Shown here: piece by piece, positions 5,187-25,110 of the stretch
How positions within the stretch are numbered: the stretch's first letter is position 1
Layout of the letters: every line of letters starts with the position of its first letter
Origin: Candidatus Kryptoniota bacterium
GTDB lineage: Bacteria; Bacteroidota; Ignavibacteria; Kryptoniales; JAKASW01
Reading direction: 5' to 3'
Assembly: GCA_036567965.1 (NCBI GenBank)
Contig: DATCTN010000024.1
Coordinates: 1-64,000, forward strand
DNA: 64,000 nucleotides
Translations under genes and position numbers: made by a program
The notes under the pieces: generated by a model
What the model was told of the DNA's origin: nothing
Database searches by the model: none
Seen by the model: the letters and a program-made list of their open reading frames with translations, nothing else

Positions 5187-6587
5187 CTAAAGATGAGTTA
5201 TCGCTTCGAGAACTTTGTCAACTTTCTCTTTTGAATCGGCTTCGCAATAATACCTGATGAGCGGTTCTGTGCCGGATGCTCTCACAAGGAACCAGCCGCC
5301 GTCGGCAAAGAAATATTTGAATCCGTCGATCCTCAGAACGTGATCGATCTTGTGGCCGGCGACATCTTTGAGCCCCTTCTTCAACTTAGCAAGCACCTTC
5401 TGCTTGTACTGTTCCGTCGTGCGTACATCGATTCGCCTGAAGATGTGCGGCCCAACCTGGTCGAACAATTCCTTCACGAGCTCTCCAAGAGTTTTTCCGC
5501 GCTTCACCATCATTTCACAAATCGTGAGTCCCAGGAATAATCCGTCGCGCTCAGGTATATGGCCTTTCAATCCGACGCCCCCGCTCTCTTCGCCGCCGAT
5601 AAGTACATCTCTGCTTATCATGACCGATGCGACGTGCTTGAATCCCACTGGCAATTCCGTCAGGCGTAAGTTGTATTTTTTTGCGAGGATATCCGGCATC
5701 TCCCCGACCGACACCGTCTTTACCACTTCGCCCCGCAAACCTTTTGTCTCGTAAAGATATTTCAGAAGAAGTGCGTAGACTTCCTGGGGGCCCACGAAGT
5801 TGCCGTGCTCGTCGACCGCGCCTATTCTATCCGCGTCACCGTCAGTTGCCAGTCCCACGCTGTAATTTCCCTGTGGCACGAACTTCATCAATTCTGAAAG
5901 GTGCGCCGCGATCGGTTCCGGGTGCTCGCCGCCAAATGAAGGATTGAACTCGTTATGGATCACGACCGCATCTTCGATAAGATGTTTGAGAATTCCCTGG
6001 CCTGCACCGTACATCGCGTCGTGCGCGATCCGGAGACGTGCACTCTTTATTGCTGCGATGTCGATCTTAGTCTTCAGATCATCTATATACATCTGTCTCA
6101 AGTTAGCTTTCGCAATCAGACCTTTTTGGGTGAGCTCGTCGTAACTCTTCTTAATGGATGTGAGGGATTTCCGGGAAAGTTTGTTCGCCTCCTTTTCAAC
6201 TTTTGCGACGTACTCCTCATCCTCCGGTCCGCCGAAATCTGCCTTCAATTTAAATCCGTTATATCTTGCCGGATTGTGCGAAGCTGTTATCACAACGCCC
6301 GCGGCCGCATTAAACTTTGGAATCGCGAGCGATAGCGCGGGTGTAGGACAATATCCGTCCGACAGTATCGCCTTCATGCCGGTGTTCGCAATCACCTCCG
6401 CCGTACGCTGAGCAAATTCAGCAGAAAGGAAGCGTGTGTCGTATCCTATCAGGATTCCATTCCTGGCTTTCTTGTGTTTCTTGTAGAACTTTGCCGTCGC
6501 AAGTGCTACCCTTGAAACATTTTCAAATGTGTAGTCCTGGGCGATTTCTCCGCGCCAGCCGTCAGTACCGAATTTGATCTTGTCCAT
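5187..6587 (-). CDS. Phosphoglucomutase/phosphomannomutase family protein
   Basis: A four-domain alpha-D-phosphohexomutase of 466 residues. It opens MDKIKFGTDGWRGE, carries the phosphoserine loop VVITASHNPARYNG, the metal-binding loop ATDGDADRIG, the sugar-specificity loop GGEESGG, and the phosphate-binding loop RASGTEPLIRYY near the C-terminus. It should interconvert hexose 1- and 6-phosphates, feeding sugar nucleotide or storage synthesis. Glucose is more likely than mannose from the GGEESGG loop, but specificity is uncertain. The frame is open upstream to 6818, but those 77 codons do not look like this family. The ATG at 6587 starts exactly at the conserved N-terminus with AGAGGA upstream. 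Confidence 0.88.
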   Translation of the reverse strand: MDKIKFGTDGWRGEIAQDYTFENVSRVALATAKFYKKHKKARNGILIGYDTRFLSAEFAQRTAEVIANTGMKAILSDGYCPTPALSLAIPKFNAAAGVVITASHNPARYNGFKLKADFGGPEDEEYVAKVEKEANKLSRKSLTSIKKSYDELTQKGLIAKANLRQMYIDDLKTKIDIAAIKSARLRIAHDAMYGAGQGILKHLIEDAVVIHNEFNPSFGGEHPEPIAAHLSELMKFVPQGNYSVGLATDGDADRIGAVDEHGNFVGPQEVYALLLKYLYETKGLRGEVVKTVSVGEMPDILAKKYNLRLTELPVGFKHVASVMISRDVLIGGEESGGVGLKGHIPERDGLFLGLTICEMMVKRGKTLGELVKELFDQVGPHIFRRIDVRTTEQYKQKVLAKLKKGLKDVAGHKIDHVLRIDGFKYFFADGGWFLVRASGTEPLIRYYCEADSKEKVDKVLEAITHL

Positions 6588-17195: not shown

Positions 17196-17733
17196 AGCAG
17201 GAAGTCCAGCTGTTCCGAGCGGGCGACTTCTCGCTCTTAATGCTCAAATCAGTGATCGAATTCAGGTTTTGTTCTTACATACCAAAGCAACCTTCCAATT
17301 TTTTGTAGATTAATTCATCACGGTACGTTGAGATAATCATCGGGTCGTATTTCCGCTGAAATGTGATCGGATAGCCGTATTTAGAAGTCCGGTTGGAAAT
17401 CGTCGTTGATGAACTCTACATCAACCGACGTCATCTCATGAACCGCATCCTGTCATCGTTTCTCCCTTGCGTAACTGTCGGTGAAACAGCGCGTTAATCC
17501 ACAAGATTTTCTTGCCAACCTGCCAATTACGGAACGGAGATTGATGAATAGGGTATGAAGGTTATCAAGGATGACAAGAAGACAAACTCTCGTTAATCAA
17601 TTACTCAAGCTGTTTCGTCCGTCGAAACGTCTTTCAGACTTTTTTATTCACTCGAACCGAATTCGCATCGAGTCAGAATTTGGAGTGACTGAAATTAAAA
17701 ACTTGATTGCAGCTAAAACTCAGGAGGTTTGAA
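17196..17733. other. 538-base region without a gene
   Basis: No reading frame here has coding character. The part nearest the downstream operon is AT-rich and ends in the strong Shine-Dalgarno of the next gene (AGGAGG at 17723-17728). No convincing sigma-70 or sigma-54 promoter and no terminator with a T-run was found, although a leader for the operon at 17734 is expected here. The GAGCG…CGCTC stem at 17218-17237 just after deoC is weak. Confidence 0.6.
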
Positions 17734-18390
17734 ATGGTTGCCATATTTGTGGTCGCGACGATAATAGTTTTCATGATTATCGATTATTTCGTACAGCGTA
17801 GTGAGAAGCGCGCCGCGGCCACGGCTCCCGCCGCACCCGCCCACTCAAAAGCTCGGTTCGTGATCCCGAAAGGATATTTCTTTGGAAAGGGTCACACTTG
17901 GGTGGAAGTAATGTCTAACGGCATGGCGCGTGTCGGTGTCGACGACTTTGTTCAGAGAATAGTCGGAAAAGTCGAGAGCGTCAGTGCGGTTCCTGTGGGG
18001 ACGGCCGTGCACGCAGGCGACAAGCTCTTTACGGTGAGTCAAGGGAAGAACATATTGTCTTTCCGCGCCCCAATATCCGGCAAGCTCGCGGCATTCAACG
18101 AAGACCTCTCCACTCTCCCGCGCCTTGTGAACGATGAGGGTTATAATGGCGGTTGGGTCGCCGTAATCCAACCCACGGATCTGAGCGGAGAAATAAGGAA
18201 TCTTCCAATTGGAGACGAGGCCGCACGCTGGCTAAAGGAAGAGATAAGAAAGTTCCGCAATTTTATCACCGCACAGATAGCTCCTTCAACTGCGGCTACA
18301 ATGGTGGACGGAGGGACTCCAGTCGAAGGTGCCCTGCAGCACGTTGCGCCGTCAGTGTGGGAGAAATTTGAAAATGATTTCCTGGCCTAG
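17734..18390 (+). CDS. Membrane-anchored GcvH-fold (lipoyl-carrier-like) protein
   Basis: A 218-residue protein with one N-terminal membrane segment (about 2-19), an Ala/Pro-rich linker, and a GcvH-like domain: GHTWVEV, MARVGVDDFVQRIVGKVESV, LFTVSQGKNILSFRAPISGK, PRLVNDEGYNGGWVAVIQP. In GcvH the lipoylated lysine lies 8 residues before the Pro of SPVSG; Lys105 occupies exactly that place here, so lipoylation is possible. No gcvT, gcvP or gcvL is nearby, so this is not a glycine cleavage locus. It leads an operon with a four-cluster ferredoxin, a NrfD-type membrane protein and a second GcvH-like protein. The ATG at 17734 is chosen because of the AGGAGG directly upstream. Role inferred: carrier or scaffold at a membrane redox complex. 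Confidence 0.72.
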   Translation: MVAIFVVATIIVFMIIDYFVQRSEKRAAATAPAAPAHSKARFVIPKGYFFGKGHTWVEVMSNGMARVGVDDFVQRIVGKVESVSAVPVGTAVHAGDKLFTVSQGKNILSFRAPISGKLAAFNEDLSTLPRLVNDEGYNGGWVAVIQPTDLSGEIRNLPIGDEAARWLKEEIRKFRNFITAQIAPSTAATMVDGGTPVEGALQHVAPSVWEKFENDFLA

Positions 18391-18446
18391 TTGATCCACA
18401 AACGAATTGTTGATCGCCTGTTAAGAGGTGCGAAAGGAGAACTTAG

Positions 18447-19226
18447 ATGTCCAGAAAAGTCGGAATACTCGTCGATACAACGCAATGTATTGGATGCCTG
18501 GCATGTGAAGACGCCTGTGCTGACAAGTGGGGCTTTCCGCACACAGACGTGCACGAGCTATCGTGCGTGAAAAATACTGTCGTCCAACAATATGGAGATG
18601 TCAATGTGCCGAAGTTATGTATGCACTGCGAGAATCCAGCTTGTGCTTCCGTTTGTCCGGTCGGCGCGCTTCACAAGACCGCGGATGGACCGGTCGTATA
18701 TGACGAAGAAAAGTGCATCGGGTGCAGGTATTGCATGCAGGCTTGCCCGTTTCAGATCCCGAAGTACCAGTGGAACAAGCCGAATCCGAAAGTGACAAAA
18801 TGCACGATGTGTTATGATCGTATCGAGCAGGGAAAACAGCCGGCGTGCGTGGAAGTGTGCCCTGTCCAGGCACGTGTTTTTGGCTATCGCGATGAACTTC
18901 TCGAAACGGCTCATAAGAAACTTAATGACAATCCAAAGACATACGTCCAGCACGTGTTCGGAGAAACAGAAGTCGGCGGCACTTCGACCATGTATCTGGC
19001 CGGAATGGATTTTGCCAATCTCGGTTTCAGAACAGATCTTCCGAAGACTGCACTTCCGCAATACACGTGGAACATTATGTCAAAGATTCCTGACTACGTT
19101 ATGTGGGGCGGTACTTTGATGACTGGATTCTGGTGGCTGACAAATAGAAAGAAAAAAGTTGCCGAGTACGAAGAGAAGCAGCGGCTGGAAAACGACCGGG
19201 AAAACTCGACAGACATTGAACGATAA
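18447..19226 (+). CDS. HybA/NrfC-like ferredoxin with four [4Fe-4S] clusters and a C-terminal anchor
   Basis: A 259-residue electron-transfer subunit. Cysteines 14/17/20/24, 58/61/66/70, 90/93/96/100 and 119/122/134/138 form the four cluster sites of the DmsB/NrfC/HybA family. There is no Tat or Sec signal peptide at the N-terminus. A hydrophobic stretch near the C-terminus (about 217-235, YVMWGGTLMTGFWWL) followed by RKKK suggests a membrane anchor as in HybA. Without a leader the clusters would face the cytoplasm, unlike HybA, which has a Tat signal. It is followed after 19 bases by the NrfD-like gene, its expected quinone-reactive partner. No molybdopterin or hydrogenase catalytic subunit is present. 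Confidence 0.87.
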   Translation: MSRKVGILVDTTQCIGCLACEDACADKWGFPHTDVHELSCVKNTVVQQYGDVNVPKLCMHCENPACASVCPVGALHKTADGPVVYDEEKCIGCRYCMQACPFQIPKYQWNKPNPKVTKCTMCYDRIEQGKQPACVEVCPVQARVFGYRDELLETAHKKLNDNPKTYVQHVFGETEVGGTSTMYLAGMDFANLGFRTDLPKTALPQYTWNIMSKIPDYVMWGGTLMTGFWWLTNRKKKVAEYEEKQRLENDRENSTDIER

Positions 19227-19245
19227 AACTTTGGAGAATTTCAAA

Positions 19246-20490
19246 ATGAGACATAGAAGATTTCCTGCGTTAATCAAGGACTGGTTCAGGAAAATGACAT
19301 TCTGGAAAACCGTTTTCGTCCTCCTGGTGATGGTGGGATTGTGGTCCACGGTTGTGCGGTTTGTATTCGGTCTTGGCGCCTCTACCAACCTTAGCGACAA
19401 GTTCCCATGGGGACTCTGGATAGGGTTCGACGTTCTTTGCGGCGTCGGTCTCGCCGCCGGTGGATTCGTCGTTGCCGCGTCGGTTTATATATTCCACCTG
19501 GATGAATTCAAGCCCCTGATCAAGCCCGCGGTGCTTACTGCCTTCCTGGGATATGTCCTGGTCGTATTCGCCCTGATGTTTGATCTCGGACGGCCATGGA
19601 ACATCTGGCATCCTCTAGTTATGTGGAACCCGCACTCGGTAATGTTCGAGGTAGCCTGGTGCGTGATGTTGTATTCAACTGTGCTGGCACTCGAATTCAG
19701 CCCGATGGTATTTGAAAGATTTCACATGCACAGGGCCAACAAGGCAGTACACACGGTGATCGTCCCGCTCGTCATATTGGGCGTCATGCTTTCTACGCTC
19801 CACCAGTCCTCTCTCGGATCGCTTTTCCTGATCTCGCCGGAAAAAATGTATCCGCTCTGGTATTCCGGCAATCTTCCGTTTCTATTCTTTCTATCAGCGC
19901 TCGCTGTGGGCCCGGCAATGGTCACCGTCGAATCGTTTCTAAGCTCTCGCGCGTTCGGAAGGGAAATTGAGCTATCGGTACTGTCCAAACTGGGGAAAGT
20001 TACCGCGGTCGCGTTGAGCGTCTATTTCGTTTTGAAAATTGAAGACATCGTCAATTACAACCTCTACCCTTACCTGTTTACGTTCAATATTGAAAGCTCG
20101 CTTTATTGGATCGAGCTCCTGCTCGGTGTCATCGCTCCGATCGTTCTTCTAGTCCAGGACAGGATACGCGCGAGTAAGAAAGGTTTATTTTACAGCGCAA
20201 TACTTGTTGTCACAGGTTTTGTCCTGAACAGGATGGACGTCAGCATCACATCACTCGAGCGACACTATGGTGTGAATTATTTTCCGAGCGTGATCGAGAT
20301 ATCAATAACAATTATGATAGTGGCGCTCGGGTTTGGCGCGTTCGCCCTGGCTGTCAAGAATCTTGCGGTGTTCCCTGTGGGAAAACCCGCCCCATCCGCC
20401 TCACATGCCGAGGCCTATGAGGTAGTCGTCGTTGAAAATGGGATCGAGCCGGCAAGGCGTTCACCCGAATTTGGCATGGAAGTCAAATAA
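19246..20490 (+). CDS. NrfD/PsrC/HybB-like polytopic membrane subunit
   Basis: A 414-residue protein with about ten hydrophobic segments. It has the HybB/NrfD character: GLGASTNLSDKFPWGLWIGFD near the first loops, HLDEFKPLIKPAVLTAFLGY, FDLGRPWNIWHPLVMWNPHS, and HQSSLGSLFLISPEKMYPLW. These proteins exchange electrons between an iron-sulfur subunit and menaquinone. The frame opens at 19159, but the ATG at 19246 has GGAG upstream and avoids overlap with the ferredoxin gene. Its partner is almost certainly the preceding ferredoxin. The donor or acceptor enzyme is missing from the locus. Confidence 0.88.
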   Translation: MRHRRFPALIKDWFRKMTFWKTVFVLLVMVGLWSTVVRFVFGLGASTNLSDKFPWGLWIGFDVLCGVGLAAGGFVVAASVYIFHLDEFKPLIKPAVLTAFLGYVLVVFALMFDLGRPWNIWHPLVMWNPHSVMFEVAWCVMLYSTVLALEFSPMVFERFHMHRANKAVHTVIVPLVILGVMLSTLHQSSLGSLFLISPEKMYPLWYSGNLPFLFFLSALAVGPAMVTVESFLSSRAFGREIELSVLSKLGKVTAVALSVYFVLKIEDIVNYNLYPYLFTFNIESSLYWIELLLGVIAPIVLLVQDRIRASKKGLFYSAILVVTGFVLNRMDVSITSLERHYGVNYFPSVIEISITIMIVALGFGAFALAVKNLAVFPVGKPAPSASHAEAYEVVVVENGIEPARRSPEFGMEVK

Positions 20491-20509
20491 AATCAGGCGT
20501 AGGTGTATC

Positions 20510-21337
20510 ATGGAAGGAATTAAGATTTCCAACCGCGTCATTCCCGACGACGAGCGCAACTGTATCTGGGTCGATGCAGGTTTACTTTCTTACAAACTGT
20601 GTGACCGGAAATTTGAGTGTGATGAATGCCCGCTTGACGAGGCTCTACGGAGACACCAAGGCTACAAGGGAGAAGAGATACGGACGTCTCGGACCGACAA
20701 TATTCATTCCGCCGATCCCCCCGTGACCCCGCCCGGCCGTTCACTCGAAAGTCTTGTCAGCGATTTTACTTTTGCCCCCGTTCCTTACACTCTGCCCGTG
20801 GACCGGCTTTACTCCCGCAATCACCTTTGGGCCATGCGAATCGAAAACAATTTGTATCGACTCGGCTTCGATCAGTTTGTCGCACGTTTGGTTGAGATAT
20901 CGGATGAGTTTGTTGTCGCGCAGCCCGAAACCAATATTACTGTCAACGATCCGTGCGCCTGGGTCCTTTGCGAGAACCTGACGGTCGCGGTCAGGTCTCC
21001 CTTGTCTGGAAGAATCAGGAAGACGAACCTGCTCCTGAATGGATCCGCCGCGAAACTTGGAGAAGATTTCTATGGAGCCGGATGGATATGTGAGGTTACG
21101 GTCGATGAAAAGACAGACCCCACAAAAAGGCTCTTTACCGGAGCTGAAATGTCGCAGAGTTCTACCGGACAGTTCATTGATTTTCGGAGAGAACTCCTCC
21201 ATGATCTTGAGTCTAGCGTTCCACCGGTAGGAATCACGCTAGCTGACGGCGGTATGCGGCCGAATAACTTGAGAGATCTAGTAGGTCCACAAAAGTACAT
21301 TGCATTCCTGCGGAAGATTCTCTCCATCAAATTGTGA
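20510..21337 (+). CDS. GcvH-fold protein with N-terminal cysteine cluster, no lipoyl lysine
   Basis: A 275-residue soluble protein. The N-terminal ~50 residues hold Cys18 and a cluster Cys31-x5-Cys37-x2-Cys40 (LCDRKFECDECPLDEALRRH), which could bind metal or a cluster. A GcvH-like domain follows at about 92-180 (RNHLWAMRIENNLYRLGFDQ, VRSPLSGRIRKTN, FYGAGWICEV). At the position of the lipoylated lysine it has Asn156, so it cannot be lipoylated there; Cys149 and Cys154 lie close by. It ends the operon: a terminator follows 22 bases after the stop. It is related in fold to the first gene of the operon but is only distantly similar. The ATG at 20510 was chosen over the earlier frame opening because that part overlaps the NrfD gene. 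Confidence 0.68.
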   Translation: MEGIKISNRVIPDDERNCIWVDAGLLSYKLCDRKFECDECPLDEALRRHQGYKGEEIRTSRTDNIHSADPPVTPPGRSLESLVSDFTFAPVPYTLPVDRLYSRNHLWAMRIENNLYRLGFDQFVARLVEISDEFVVAQPETNITVNDPCAWVLCENLTVAVRSPLSGRIRKTNLLLNGSAAKLGEDFYGAGWICEVTVDEKTDPTKRLFTGAEMSQSSTGQFIDFRRELLHDLESSVPPVGITLADGGMRPNNLRDLVGPQKYIAFLRKILSIKL

Positions 21338-21358: not shown

Positions 21359-21398
21359 CACGCCTGCCCTGAGCCGATTGGGGCGGCGTGTGGTTTTT
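21359..21398 (+). terminator. Rho-independent terminator of the GcvH-like/FeS/NrfD operon
   Basis: CACGCC-t-GCCC (21359-21369) pairs with GGGC-GGCGTG (21381-21390) with one bulged T and an 11-base loop, followed by TGG and TTTTT (21394-21398). This separates the redox operon from the two-component system that follows. Confidence 0.85.
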
Positions 21399-21517: not shown

Positions 21518-23158
21518 ATGCGAATAACAAAATACCTAGCTTTCAAACTGTTGCTGATCGTGCTGACCGTGATGTTCGTATTCACGGCGATCTTTACCAC
21601 TGTCATGTTAAAATGGCATTCCGAAAAATATCTTGATGCTACTACGGAGTGGGCAGGGAGAACGAGTGACCTGATTAAGAGATCGACTCGTTACAGCATG
21701 CTCGAGAATCGGCGGGAGGACATCTACCAGACAATAAATACTCTGGGCTCCGAGCCCGGGATCGAGACGATCAGAATTTATAACAAGAAGGGGGAAGTGA
21801 CATTCTCGACCGTCAACGGAGAAGTTGGAAAGCACGTTAACATGGACGCAGAGGCGTGTACCGTCTGCCATCAGGCGGGGAAACTTCTGCCGTCGGATAC
21901 CGGAGTGCCGCTTACAAGGGTTTTCACTTCGCCAAAAGGATATAGAGTCCTTGGAGTGATCACGCCGATCCGAAATGAGCCGGCCTGCTATAACTCGGAA
22001 TGCCATGAGCACTCTTCGTCGCAGACAGTGCTGGGCGTGCTCGACGTCATGCTCCCGCTGAAGGGACTTGACGATAATCTCGCGCAGCTTAAGAACACCA
22101 GTTACTTGAGCGGCGCGTTAATGATTGTAGGCGTGACATTGTTTGCGGGTATCTTCATTTGGATAATGGTGAACATTCCCGTCCGGAAACTTATACTCGG
22201 CACGCAGGAAGTGATGCGCGGAAAGCTGGGTCATAGGATCGACGTGAGTTCGAGCGACGAGATCGGTGAGCTCGCGACTTCGTTCAACAAGATGACCGAG
22301 GAGCTCAGTCGTGCACATGACGAGCTCACGCGCTGGACTCAGACTCTCGAAGAGCGGGTAGAGCAAAAGGCGGACGAGCTGAGAAGAGCGCTCTCGAACA
22401 TGGTACATATGGAAAAGATGGCATCCCTCGGCAAGCTTGCGGCGAGCGTGGCACATGAGCTGAACAACCCTCTGGCTGGTATCCTTGCATATGCCAAACT
22501 GATTCGGAAGAAACTTTCCAGGGAGGGCCGCACTGGTGAGGAAGCCAGTGAGATTGACACGGAACTCTCTATGATCGCCGATGAGAGCGCACGTTGTGGA
22601 AACATTGTAAATAATCTTCTGCTGTTTTCGAGACAGAAGATCGGCGAGCTCCAGCCGCAGAAACTGTCGAAAATAATCGAGCAGAGCTTGAAGCTGATAG
22701 CCCATCACTTGGCAATGAGCAATGTGAAAAGTGAAGTGAAAATTCTGACGGATGAGGTTGAGATCATCTGCGATCCCCAGCAAATCGAGCAGGCATTGAT
22801 CGCCCTGGAGATAAATGCGATCGAGGCCATGCCTGACGGCGGGAAGCTTCAGATAGAACTTGAATACCGGCCGCAGGAAAAAGAGGAGCGCATAAGAGTT
22901 TCCGATAACGGCTTAGGGATTGGCCGCGAAGATCTGGAGCATATCTTCGAACCGTTCTTTACCACGAAGAAGGACGGGAAAGGGACAGGACTTGGACTCG
23001 CCGTCGTGCACGGTATCGTCGAACGGCATAACGGAAGAATAGATGTCGAATCGAAACTAAATGTGGGCTCCGTATTTACGATCATCCTGCCGCTGGATCC
23101 CGATGCTGCGGCCAAATCAAAACTGTCAAAGAGCACGAACACTGAGACGACCTTATGA
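21518..23158 (+). CDS. Membrane sensor histidine kinase with periplasmic haem-binding motifs
   Basis: A 546-residue sensor: membrane segment 1 (about 8-30), a periplasmic domain (31-196), membrane segment 2 (197-219), HAMP (about 216-270), coiled coil, HisKA with phospho-acceptor His313 (VAHELNNPLAGILAYAKLIR), and a HATPase domain (N box ALIALEINAIEAMPDGG, DNGLGIG, GKGTGLGLAVVHG). The periplasmic domain has a classical c-haem motif Cys114-Thr-Val-Cys117-His118 and a second, wider CX4CH at Cys157/Cys162-His163. A haem-based redox or gas sensor is therefore likely; covalent haem attachment at CX4CH would be unusual. It overlaps the response regulator gene by 4 bases and follows the NrfD operon, its probable target. 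Confidence 0.87.
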   Translation: MRITKYLAFKLLLIVLTVMFVFTAIFTTVMLKWHSEKYLDATTEWAGRTSDLIKRSTRYSMLENRREDIYQTINTLGSEPGIETIRIYNKKGEVTFSTVNGEVGKHVNMDAEACTVCHQAGKLLPSDTGVPLTRVFTSPKGYRVLGVITPIRNEPACYNSECHEHSSSQTVLGVLDVMLPLKGLDDNLAQLKNTSYLSGALMIVGVTLFAGIFIWIMVNIPVRKLILGTQEVMRGKLGHRIDVSSSDEIGELATSFNKMTEELSRAHDELTRWTQTLEERVEQKADELRRALSNMVHMEKMASLGKLAASVAHELNNPLAGILAYAKLIRKKLSREGRTGEEASEIDTELSMIADESARCGNIVNNLLLFSRQKIGELQPQKLSKIIEQSLKLIAHHLAMSNVKSEVKILTDEVEIICDPQQIEQALIALEINAIEAMPDGGKLQIELEYRPQEKEERIRVSDNGLGIGREDLEHIFEPFFTTKKDGKGTGLGLAVVHGIVERHNGRIDVESKLNVGSVFTIILPLDPDAAAKSKLSKSTNTETTL

Positions 23159-24519
23159 ATAACAACCAGAAGACACAGCAGGCAAGCATACTCGTCGTGG
23201 ATGACGAACTTTCCGTCCGTGATTCGCTCGGCAAGTGGTTTAAGGAGGACGGCTACAGAGTCGAGACCGCTGAAAATGCGAACCGCGCGTTGACATTGAT
23301 GAACAACGGACCGTGGGACATAATCCTCCTTGACATCAAGATGCCCGGGATGGATGGCCTCGAGCTGCAGAAGCGGATAAAGGAAATAGATAAATCGGCG
23401 GCGATCATAATGGTGACGGCCTTTGCCGCCGTTGACAGCGCGGTGCAGGCCCTGAAGGAGGGTGCATTTGACTACGTGACGAAGCCGGTGGACCCGGAAC
23501 ATCTTTCGCATCTTGTGCAAAATGCTCTCCGTACGAAGAAACTTGCTGATGAGAACTGGAGACTTCGTCAGCAAATGTCCGAATTATCCGGCGTCGACGA
23601 GATCATCGGTGAGAGTTCACAAATGAAGAAAGTCATCGACCTGGCCAAAACCGTCGCGCAAACGGATACGACCGTGATGGTTCGGGGAGAAAGCGGCACG
23701 GGAAAAGAACTGGTTGCAAGGACAATCCATGCGAACAGCTCGAGGAGGTATTTTCCGATAATTACTGTAAACTGCGGCGCTGTTCCGGAAACACTTCTCG
23801 AAAGCGAACTGTTTGGCCATGAGAAGGGCGCGTTTACCGGAGCCCAGTTCAGGCGAAAAGGGAAGTTCGAGATGGCGGACGGAGGAACAATTTTTCTGGA
23901 CGAGATCGGAGCGATAAGCCAGAAGATGCAGGTACAGCTTCTTCGCGTCATCGAGTCGAAGCAGTTCACCCGCGTCGGGGGAAACGACGTGATTTCCAGC
24001 GACTTCCGCGTAGTCTGCGCGACTAACCGCGACCTCGAAGCAGCTGTGGCAGACAAAAGTTTTAGGGAAGACTTGTACTACCGATTGAACGTCTTCACGG
24101 TATTCGTCCCGCCGTTGCGCGAAAGACGCGTGGATATACCGCCGCTCGTCAATCACTTTATAAAGAAATATGCTTCCTCCATGAACAAGCCTTTGCTGGA
24201 GATTGCCCCCGAAGCAATGGATCTACTTATCCGGAACAAATGGCCCGGAAACGTGCGCGAGCTGGAAAACGTTGTCGAGAGGGCGATGGTGCTTGCAAAG
24301 CCACCGGCGATCCGCCCCGAGAACCTGCCGTTCCAGCTTACACAATCTCAGGAAAACGGATTCGTGCAGGACGATACTATAACGAGCATGGAGCGTGTGC
24401 ACATTGCTCGCATACTCGAAAAGAACAATTGGAATATCACACGAACCGCCGAAGCGCTGGACATAGACAGGGTCACACTCTACAGCAAGATATCGAAATA
24501 CGGATTAAAGAAACCCTGA
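23155..24519 (+). CDS. Sigma-54-dependent response regulator (NtrC family)
   Basis: A 454-residue activator with three parts: receiver domain with phospho-acceptor Asp60 (IILLDIKMPGMDG) and Lys110 (VTKPVD); AAA+ domain with Walker A GESGTGKE (178-185), the sigma-54-contacting GAFTGA loop (225-230) and an arginine-finger region; and a C-terminal Fis-type helix-turn-helix (NWNITRTAEALDIDRVTLYS). Its start overlaps the kinase stop (ATGA), so the two form a cognate pair. It should activate sigma-54 promoters; one candidate lies upstream of the beta-barrel gene at 25272. I found none upstream of the NrfD operon. Confidence 0.94.
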   Translation: MNNNQKTQQASILVVDDELSVRDSLGKWFKEDGYRVETAENANRALTLMNNGPWDIILLDIKMPGMDGLELQKRIKEIDKSAAIIMVTAFAAVDSAVQALKEGAFDYVTKPVDPEHLSHLVQNALRTKKLADENWRLRQQMSELSGVDEIIGESSQMKKVIDLAKTVAQTDTTVMVRGESGTGKELVARTIHANSSRRYFPIITVNCGAVPETLLESELFGHEKGAFTGAQFRRKGKFEMADGGTIFLDEIGAISQKMQVQLLRVIESKQFTRVGGNDVISSDFRVVCATNRDLEAAVADKSFREDLYYRLNVFTVFVPPLRERRVDIPPLVNHFIKKYASSMNKPLLEIAPEAMDLLIRNKWPGNVRELENVVERAMVLAKPPAIRPENLPFQLTQSQENGFVQDDTITSMERVHIARILEKNNWNITRTAEALDIDRVTLYSKISKYGLKKP

Positions 24520-24549
24520 TCTCTGGATTACATAACCCGTTTGTTGAGA

Positions 24550-25110
24550 ATGTTGCCGATATTGATTGTCGCGATAGATCCGGTGGACGTTTCCGCCATG
24601 TCTCCACTGACGAGGCGCCTGTCGAAAATATTTTCCTCCGGCGTCGAGCTGACATCCGTAAAACCCCTCGACGGCTCATTCGCATTCAACTTTTCACGTA
24701 ACCAGTACGGGTCTACTCCACTTCTTTCGGCTCTCCTCGACAAGTACAAATCCTACGAAGGTAAAATACTCGGCGTAACGTCGGGCGACTTGTTTGTCCC
24801 TGTGCTTACATACGTTTTTGGAGAAGCCCAGCTCGACGGCAAGGCAGCGGTCGTCTCATCACACCGTCTCAGTGAAGAATTCTACGGCCTTCAACCTGAC
24901 CGCGATCTTTTTGCGCTCCGGCTTCTGAAAGAATCAGCGCACGAGCTTGGCCACACATTCGGATTGCTTCACTGCAGGAATTATCTCTGCGCCATGCATT
25001 CTTCAACCGGTGTGGAAGAGATAGATCTTAAGACAGATAGATTCTGCGGCGACTGTTCCGACAAACTCCGGCAAGGCGGCGGACAGGAATCCTTCTCTAA
25101 CCAACATTGA
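24550..25110 (+). CDS. amzA: Archaemetzincin family zinc metalloprotease
   Basis: About 186 residues with the archaemetzincin signature HELGHTFGLLHC (zinc histidines and catalytic Glu), then CX4CXM (CRNYLCAM) and a final CXXC (CGDC). The extra cysteines, which bind a second structural zinc, distinguish this family from other metzincins. The N-terminus is typical too (ILIVAIDPVDVSAM). No signal peptide, so it is cytoplasmic. The ATG at 24550 is used; a TTG at 24541 is possible, and no strong Shine-Dalgarno helps decide. It starts 30 bases after the sigma-54 regulator and is probably co-transcribed. The biological substrate of bacterial members is unknown. Confidence 0.85.
   Translation: MLPILIVAIDPVDVSAMSPLTRRLSKIFSSGVELTSVKPLDGSFAFNFSRNQYGSTPLLSALLDKYKSYEGKILGVTSGDLFVPVLTYVFGEAQLDGKAAVVSSHRLSEEFYGLQPDRDLFALRLLKESAHELGHTFGLLHCRNYLCAMHSSTGVEEIDLKTDRFCGDCSDKLRQGGGQESFSNQH

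Follow-up and report, generated by a model that had tools for sequence, protein, structure and literature searches.

Closest described systems

The pairing of an NrfD protein with an iron-sulfur (FeS) protein represents a core energy-conserving module. Such a pair is encoded on contig DATCTN010000024.1 of a Candidatus Kryptoniota bacterium (assembly GCA_036567965.1), of which positions 1 to 64,000 were analyzed (64,000 nucleotides, hereafter the window), and the closest described systems are (i) the Hmc complex (HmcABCDEF) of Desulfovibrio and (ii) the menaquinone reductase QrcABCD. In the window, the pair is part of a seven-gene locus, G1-FeS-NrfD-G2-HK-RR-M54 (Table 1), which also encodes two GcvH-fold proteins (G1, G2), a dihaem histidine kinase (HK), an NtrC-type response regulator (RR) and an archaemetzincin (M54). 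The interpretation favoured here, held with about even confidence, is that of a two-subunit Hmc/Qrc-type, menaquinone-reactive FeS/NrfD module coupled via non-lipoylated GcvH adaptors to a haem-sensing sigma-54 signalling cassette.

HmcB and HmcC are the best-scoring families for the FeS and the NrfD protein, but the NCBIfam equivalog cut-offs are not reached (256 of 420 bits and 324 of 550 bits, respectively). Compared to Hmc, the locus lacks HmcA, HmcD, HmcE and HmcF as well as a twin-arginine translocation (Tat) leader on the FeS protein, and adds the two GcvH-fold proteins, the dihaem kinase, the NtrC-type regulator and M54; adjacent regulator genes are a shared trait, since rrf1 and rrf2 are located beside hmc (PMC10924467). 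NrfD topology and quinone/proton-path residues are common to QrcABCD and the window, whereas the QrcA cytochrome and QrcB are missing and NrfD shares only 28 % identity with QrcD from the Qrc-like locus of its own genome. Based on the cut-offs and missing subunits, membership of the locus in either system was rejected.

Tail-anchored ferredoxin/HybB-like modules likewise represent FeS/NrfD pairs outside classical enzymes and include a leaderless, C-tailed variant resembling that of the window, but carry c-type cytochromes or FeFe hydrogenase; GcvH and M54 proteins are not mentioned in the section consulted (PMC10924467). GcvH-fold proteins tied to redox genes, as in the window, are known as LbpA from sHdr systems, where they are encoded together with hdr-like and lplA-like genes and, in contrast to G1 and G2, retain the lipoyl lysine (PMC6067878). 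The HEXXHXXGXXHC plus cysteine signature of archaemetzincins (PMC3427221) is intact in M54 of the window, which differs in being bacterial and genetically tied to a two-component system. A literature search covering few subscription journals retrieved neither a published account of the present gene association nor a paper tying an archaemetzincin to a two-component system or a GcvH protein to a receiver domain.

Conservation and distribution

The four genes recognized by the first-pass annotation, made from the sequence alone, are all present as open reading frames (ORFs) in the described order GcvH-like/FeS/NrfD/GcvH-like, match their families, and are co-oriented and equipped with good ribosome-binding sites. 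The order G1-FeS-NrfD-G2-kinase recurs in 60 relatives of the class; gene order was preserved in about 30 relatives, mostly with 50–77 % NrfD identity, a conservation far beyond chance. Relatives are mostly metagenome-assembled genomes (MAGs), and counts given here and below mix related loci. Their ORFs were called with a simple longest-ORF script, and haem motifs and Tat leaders by regular expressions. Fetched neighbourhoods add the dihaem kinase, the NtrC-type regulator and M54 (the latter in 18 of 21 loci), and the same seven-gene order recurs across Ignavibacteria/Kryptonia. Co-occurrence in order, proposed as a check in the first-pass annotation, is thus conserved within the class, while variants of the locus are also present outside it, among others in Acidobacteriota and Gemmatimonadota. 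The operon had also been taken to end behind G2: a hairpin with a T run is indeed present there, but kinase, regulator and M54 follow beyond it and are conserved together with the four upstream genes. That these three genes had been overlooked changes the interpretation.

Full-length G1 was found in 22 of 296 genomes drawn from the phylum, all 22 belonging to the class of the window. Each of them also encodes M54, in 16 cases 5.7–7.2 kb downstream on the same strand (co-occurrence within the class, p ~1e-16, phylogeny uncorrected). A GTDB scan by M54 alignment, from which the best 80 hits were kept and 80 loci fetched, is for this reason not a census; among these 80, M54 loci originate from Bacteroidota, Acidobacteriota, Gemmatimonadota, Zixibacteria, Glassbacteria, Wallbacteria, Planctomycetota and deltaproteobacterial MAGs. 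A kinase or regulator is located near M54 in 77 of the 79 loci scored among these best hits, and NrfD plus a GcvH-fold protein in 39 of the 51 with at least 6 kb of upstream sequence. Two kinase-regulator-M54 cassettes of different types (module type beside Qrc type) stand in tandem in L108 and L082/L113.

GcvH-fold proteins and their proposed link to signalling

G1 consists of an N-terminal transmembrane (TM) helix, a GcvH fold and a C-terminal DGG (D192-G194); basic residues following the helix place the GcvH domain in the cytoplasm. The GCV_H match of G2 is weak, yet above the Pfam cut-off, and its N-terminal cysteines (C18, C31, C37, C40) correspond to a four-Cys motif present in 49 of 53 G2 proteins. 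AlphaFold models built on their own cross-phylum alignments reached a predicted local distance difference test (pLDDT) score of 89 for G1 (AF2; Foldseek TMt 0.93 to E. coli GcvH) and of 78 overall for G2, with >90 over most of the domain (TMt 0.86 to a solved GcvH). Since both superpose on solved GcvH, the folds are considered real.

As judged from alignment, both types of protein have lost the lipoate attachment site. While the attachment lysine is present, in E-x-x-K context, in all seven classical reference proteins (from E. coli, M. tuberculosis and, in five cases, the phylum of the window), it was retained in only 6 of 94 G1-like, none of 57 G2-like (including G2 of the window) and 2 of 11 REC-GcvH proteins; in LbpA, by comparison, it is kept in 95 of 95 (PMC6067878). 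G1 of the window is one of the six, its K105 aligning exactly to the lipoyl lysine, but this position is occupied by G, N, T, S, Q or E in relatives at genus level. A separate classical GcvH (L175) is encoded in the window's genome. Two four-Cys motifs in tandem precede the GcvH domain of a G2-like protein that adjoins kinase-M54-regulator genes in L142 (7882-9024, + strand) and similarly in L147; FeS/NrfD was not found in the genome of the L142-type protein.

A connection of GcvH folds to signalling is suggested by sister loci. The Hmc-type sister locus encodes an FeS protein with Tat leader, NrfD, a 13-haem cytochrome with similarity to HmcA and a haem kinase, accompanied by GcvH proteins of the forms REC-GcvH (265 aa) and TM-REC-GcvH (388 aa). 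Each is a single protein that matches both Pfam Response_reg and GCV_H in full, the receiver domains being complete, and TM-REC-GcvH is nested within the G1 clade (support 0.81–0.91) in a moderately supported group tree used solely for this placement. In the Qrc-type locus of the window's genome, QrcA-B-C-D are flanked by two GcvH-fold proteins and adjoined by a kinase-M54-regulator cassette. Conversely, G1/G2 or a GcvH pair stand beside HK-RR-M54 without FeS/NrfD in L100, L101, L105 and L125; NrfD was not detected in the genomes of L100 and L105, although this absence is tentative as both are MAGs. The window's genome moreover contains a second FeS/NrfD pair (L031, G000:C4:3500-23000; L195; 82/77 % identical) without adjoining GcvH, oriented divergently from genes for a QmoC-like protein, a 1490-aa HdrA-like fusion, MvhD and an Mvh-type NiFe hydrogenase. 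Taken together, GcvH pairs lacking FeS/NrfD and paralogous FeS/NrfD lacking GcvH indicate that the association of the GcvH folds with the signalling cassette is no looser than that with the redox pair. HK-RR-M54 without any GcvH seen nearby was observed in L127 and L153. In L090, a locus without G2, the gene directly 5' of G1 (5222-6334, + strand) codes for a C_GCAxxG_C_C redox protein that is secreted, carries two haem motifs and starts with a twin-arginine-like leader (SRKDFL).

Kinase, regulator and M54

The HisKA/HATPase kinase and the REC-Sigma54-HTH_8 regulator qualify as an NtrC-type two-component system. The kinase harbours the haem motifs CTVCH and CYNSECH, and both CxxCH and CX3-4CH were found in the sensor region of 91 of 103 related kinases. 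The kinase is the sole c-type haem protein encoded in most loci with the module. Sigma-54-like sites precede G1 in 19 of 77 loci and the kinase in 8 of 78, compared to 6 of 577 unrelated genes (p=3e-14 for G1 versus other genes). In aligned G1 upstream regions of genus-level orthologues, GGAAC-N5-TTGA, located at about 17531 in the window, is the only clear shared block. M54 of the window matches PF07998 with 84.3 bits (cut-off 24.4); the pattern HEXXHXXGXXHCX4CXM...CXXC is present in the alignment, with the signature HELGHTFGLLHC and the cysteines intact.

The FeS/NrfD pair

The FeS protein contains 16 cysteines in four [4Fe-4S] motifs. According to the positive-inside rule, the N-terminus of NrfD is located inside, as in the Hmc type; nine TM helices were found, versus ten in several relatives. 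Nine residues of the quinone/proton path were named for QrcD (PMC6303296), six of which could be resolved and are matched by the module NrfD (D62, Y103, Y143, E150, E157 and H186, kept in 49–56 of 56 module NrfD proteins). Topology and path residues together position the quinone site close to the periplasm. NrfD proteins carry no cofactor, and a working FeS partner is therefore expected on the side of the quinone site.

No Tat leader was detected on FeS proteins of the module type, nearly all of which have 11–23 residues before the first Cys motif; RR leaders are confined to FeS proteins of the Hmc type and distant variants. A hydrophobic C-terminal tail, IPDYVMWGGTLMTGFWWLT followed by NRKKK as basic end, is kept (-6.1 on the Wimley-White octanol scale, low on Kyte-Doolittle). 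In Tat-exporting relatives (Hmc type, L121, L126, L145 and probably L157), FeS is predicted outside and GcvH or REC-GcvH inside. The lack of a leader had led the first-pass annotation to assign the FeS protein to the cytoplasm; the lack stands, but the assignment is unsafe, as NrfD topology, Qrc-type quinone-site residues and charges of the C-tail lean towards a periplasmic location.

Search for a catalytic or electron partner

No molybdenum (Mo) enzyme, hydrogenase or multihaem cytochrome was found among the neighbouring ORFs examined in the window, and the absence of a catalytic subunit noted earlier holds for the window and its locus type. Linked cytochromes, which would have spoken against this, occur only in related types (the 13-haem protein of the Hmc type, QrcA/QrcB of the Qrc type) and in few embedded cases. 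Among the 55 loci with leaderless FeS, no credible Tat-bearing protein is encoded within 7 kb in any; 12 of them have a protein with at least three haems at this distance, three being Dsr loci and two adjacent Hmc-type loci. No FeFe hydrogenase was found in the window's genome, its NiFe hydrogenases belong to Mvh/Hdr-type and soluble-type clusters, and matches to Mo families represent an Act-type complex and a NuoG-like ORF. With no orphan partner among these Mo, NiFe and FeFe enzymes, a catalytic subunit in trans was rejected.

A tetrahaem cytochrome of 171–176 aa is encoded between G2 and the kinase in L047 and L141 and is a candidate for the natural redox partner; a periplasmic cytochrome as partner is also hinted at by the small multihaem cytochromes within L047, L141, L118 and L149. 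Certain genus relatives (L085, G010:C26; also L086-L088) encode a fusion of an HmcC-like NrfD with a domain carrying six haems (638 aa). The L085-type locus also holds DsrK-like, TmcC/HmcE-like and DsrA genes, the gene content suggesting dissimilatory sulfite metabolism in conjunction with the fused NrfD-cytochrome.

Table 1 Features of the seven-gene locus (positions in the window)
Feature	Position	Strand	Evidence
Sigma-54-like -24/-12 element GGAAC-N5-TTGA, ~200 bp 5' of G1	17527-17550	+	aligned upstream regions of genus-level orthologues
G1, GcvH-like	17734-18390	+	Pfam GCV_H E=7e-21
HmcB/HybA-like FeS protein, four [4Fe-4S]	18447-19226	+	best NCBIfam HmcB, 256 bits
HmcC/HybB/QrcD-like NrfD quinone subunit	19246-20490	+	Pfam NrfD PF03916 E=2e-25; best NCBIfam HmcC, 324 bits
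G2, GcvH fold with N-terminal four-Cys motif	20510-21337	+	GCV_H E=4e-7
Intrinsic-terminator-like inverted repeat and T run, CCACGCC...GGCGTGTGGTTTTT	~21359-21398	+	direct reading of sequence
Membrane histidine kinase: periplasmic dihaem-c-type sensor, HAMP, HisKA, HATPase	21518-23158	+	domain matches, haem motifs
NtrC-type sigma-54 response regulator: REC, AAA+ with GAFTGA, Fis HTH	23155-24519	+	domain matches
Archaemetzincin zinc protease (M54)	24541-25110	+	Pfam M54 E=2e-23; alignment

Interpretation

In the favoured reading, the dihaem kinase would sense the periplasmic redox state and phosphorylate the NtrC-type regulator, which in turn would drive sigma-54-dependent expression of the module. 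Electrons may flow to or from menaquinone in exchange with a periplasmic partner. The REC-GcvH fusions and the GcvH pairs beside kinase cassettes without NrfD are the reason for regarding membrane-anchored G1 and soluble, four-Cys G2 as putative non-lipoylated cytoplasmic adaptor or regulatory subunits of the signalling cassette. They most likely act at the cytoplasmic face of NrfD or pass the state of the module to kinase or regulator, presumably by direct contact with NrfD or the kinase. Several points weigh against this proposal: (i) a strict sigma-54 scan of the window revealed no excess and did not pick up the GGAAC...TTGA site, a variant that came to light solely by comparing relatives, (ii) G1 and G2 of the window type have no receiver domain, so that a phospho-relay through them would not be direct, (iii) genomes in which NrfD is missing are MAGs, possibly incomplete ones, (iv) in the window, the kinase is set apart from the four genes by the terminator-like hairpin, and (v) a plain structural role of G1 and G2 competes with it.

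The latter would imply an ordinary respiratory complex, a quinone oxidoreductase in which G1 and G2 are structural subunits, with kinase and regulator controlling transcription only. This possibility, if less probable, deserves consideration: GcvH pairs flank the full QrcABCD in the same genome, NqrA likewise contains barrel-sandwich domains (weak Pfam NQRA_N matches) and the sigma-54 data are compatible with simple expression control. Fusion of GcvH to receiver domains, retention of the GcvH pair where FeS/NrfD is missing, and the close FeS/NrfD paralogue without adjoining GcvH do not fit such a complex.

One may speculate further that FeS/NrfD is itself the sensor input, wiring the menaquinone pool to the periplasmic dihaem domain of the kinase, with the non-lipoylated GcvH folds as new two-component output or adaptor domain and a dedicated archaemetzincin in the circuit. 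Though rather doubtful at present, such an arrangement would, if true, constitute a quinone redox sensor made of respiratory-enzyme parts.

It is unlikely that the leaderless FeS protein hitchhikes via Tat with an unlinked periplasmic enzyme. The missing leader and the kept C-tail would agree with this route, and a similar FeS protein beside FeFe hydrogenase, in a proposed pair with HybB, was interpreted as Tat hitchhiker (PMC10924467); however, the hydrogenases and Mo proteins of the window's genome described above offer no such carrier.

Quite improbable is a maturation system, in which G1 and G2 would serve as assembly factors or protease substrates and M54 would process or turn them over at the C-terminal DGG. 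In M54-bearing loci, DGG is near-invariant (71 of 73 G1; 52 of 53 G2, with residues 246-248 in G2 of the window; 12 of 14 Qrc-type GcvH) and M54 accompanies G1 in all 22 module genomes, while none of the 11 REC-GcvH proteins has DGG, a contrast which is not independent, as REC-GcvH are few and form a single clade. M54 rather follows the HK-RR genes, including those of L127 and L153.

Hardly tenable is the view of the first-pass annotation that G1 and G2 are lipoylated carriers that replace a catalytic subunit, with the FeS protein as their exchange partner for electrons or acyl groups, since, despite K105 and the service of GcvH-type carriers to Hdr-like complexes (LbpA, PMC6067878), the lysine is missing in 88 of 94 G1-like and 57 of 57 G2-like sequences together with its ESxK context, and Tat-exporting relatives are predicted to hold FeS and GcvH folds on opposite sides of the membrane.

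Significance

In several phyla, the locus brings a stand-alone NrfD/FeS pair together with a haem sensor kinase, GcvH folds without cofactor site and a bacterial archaemetzincin. GcvH folds thereby gain a likely non-metabolic role as output of receiver domains. For the archaemetzincins, a family with a poorly known biological role, the conserved partners make function directly testable.

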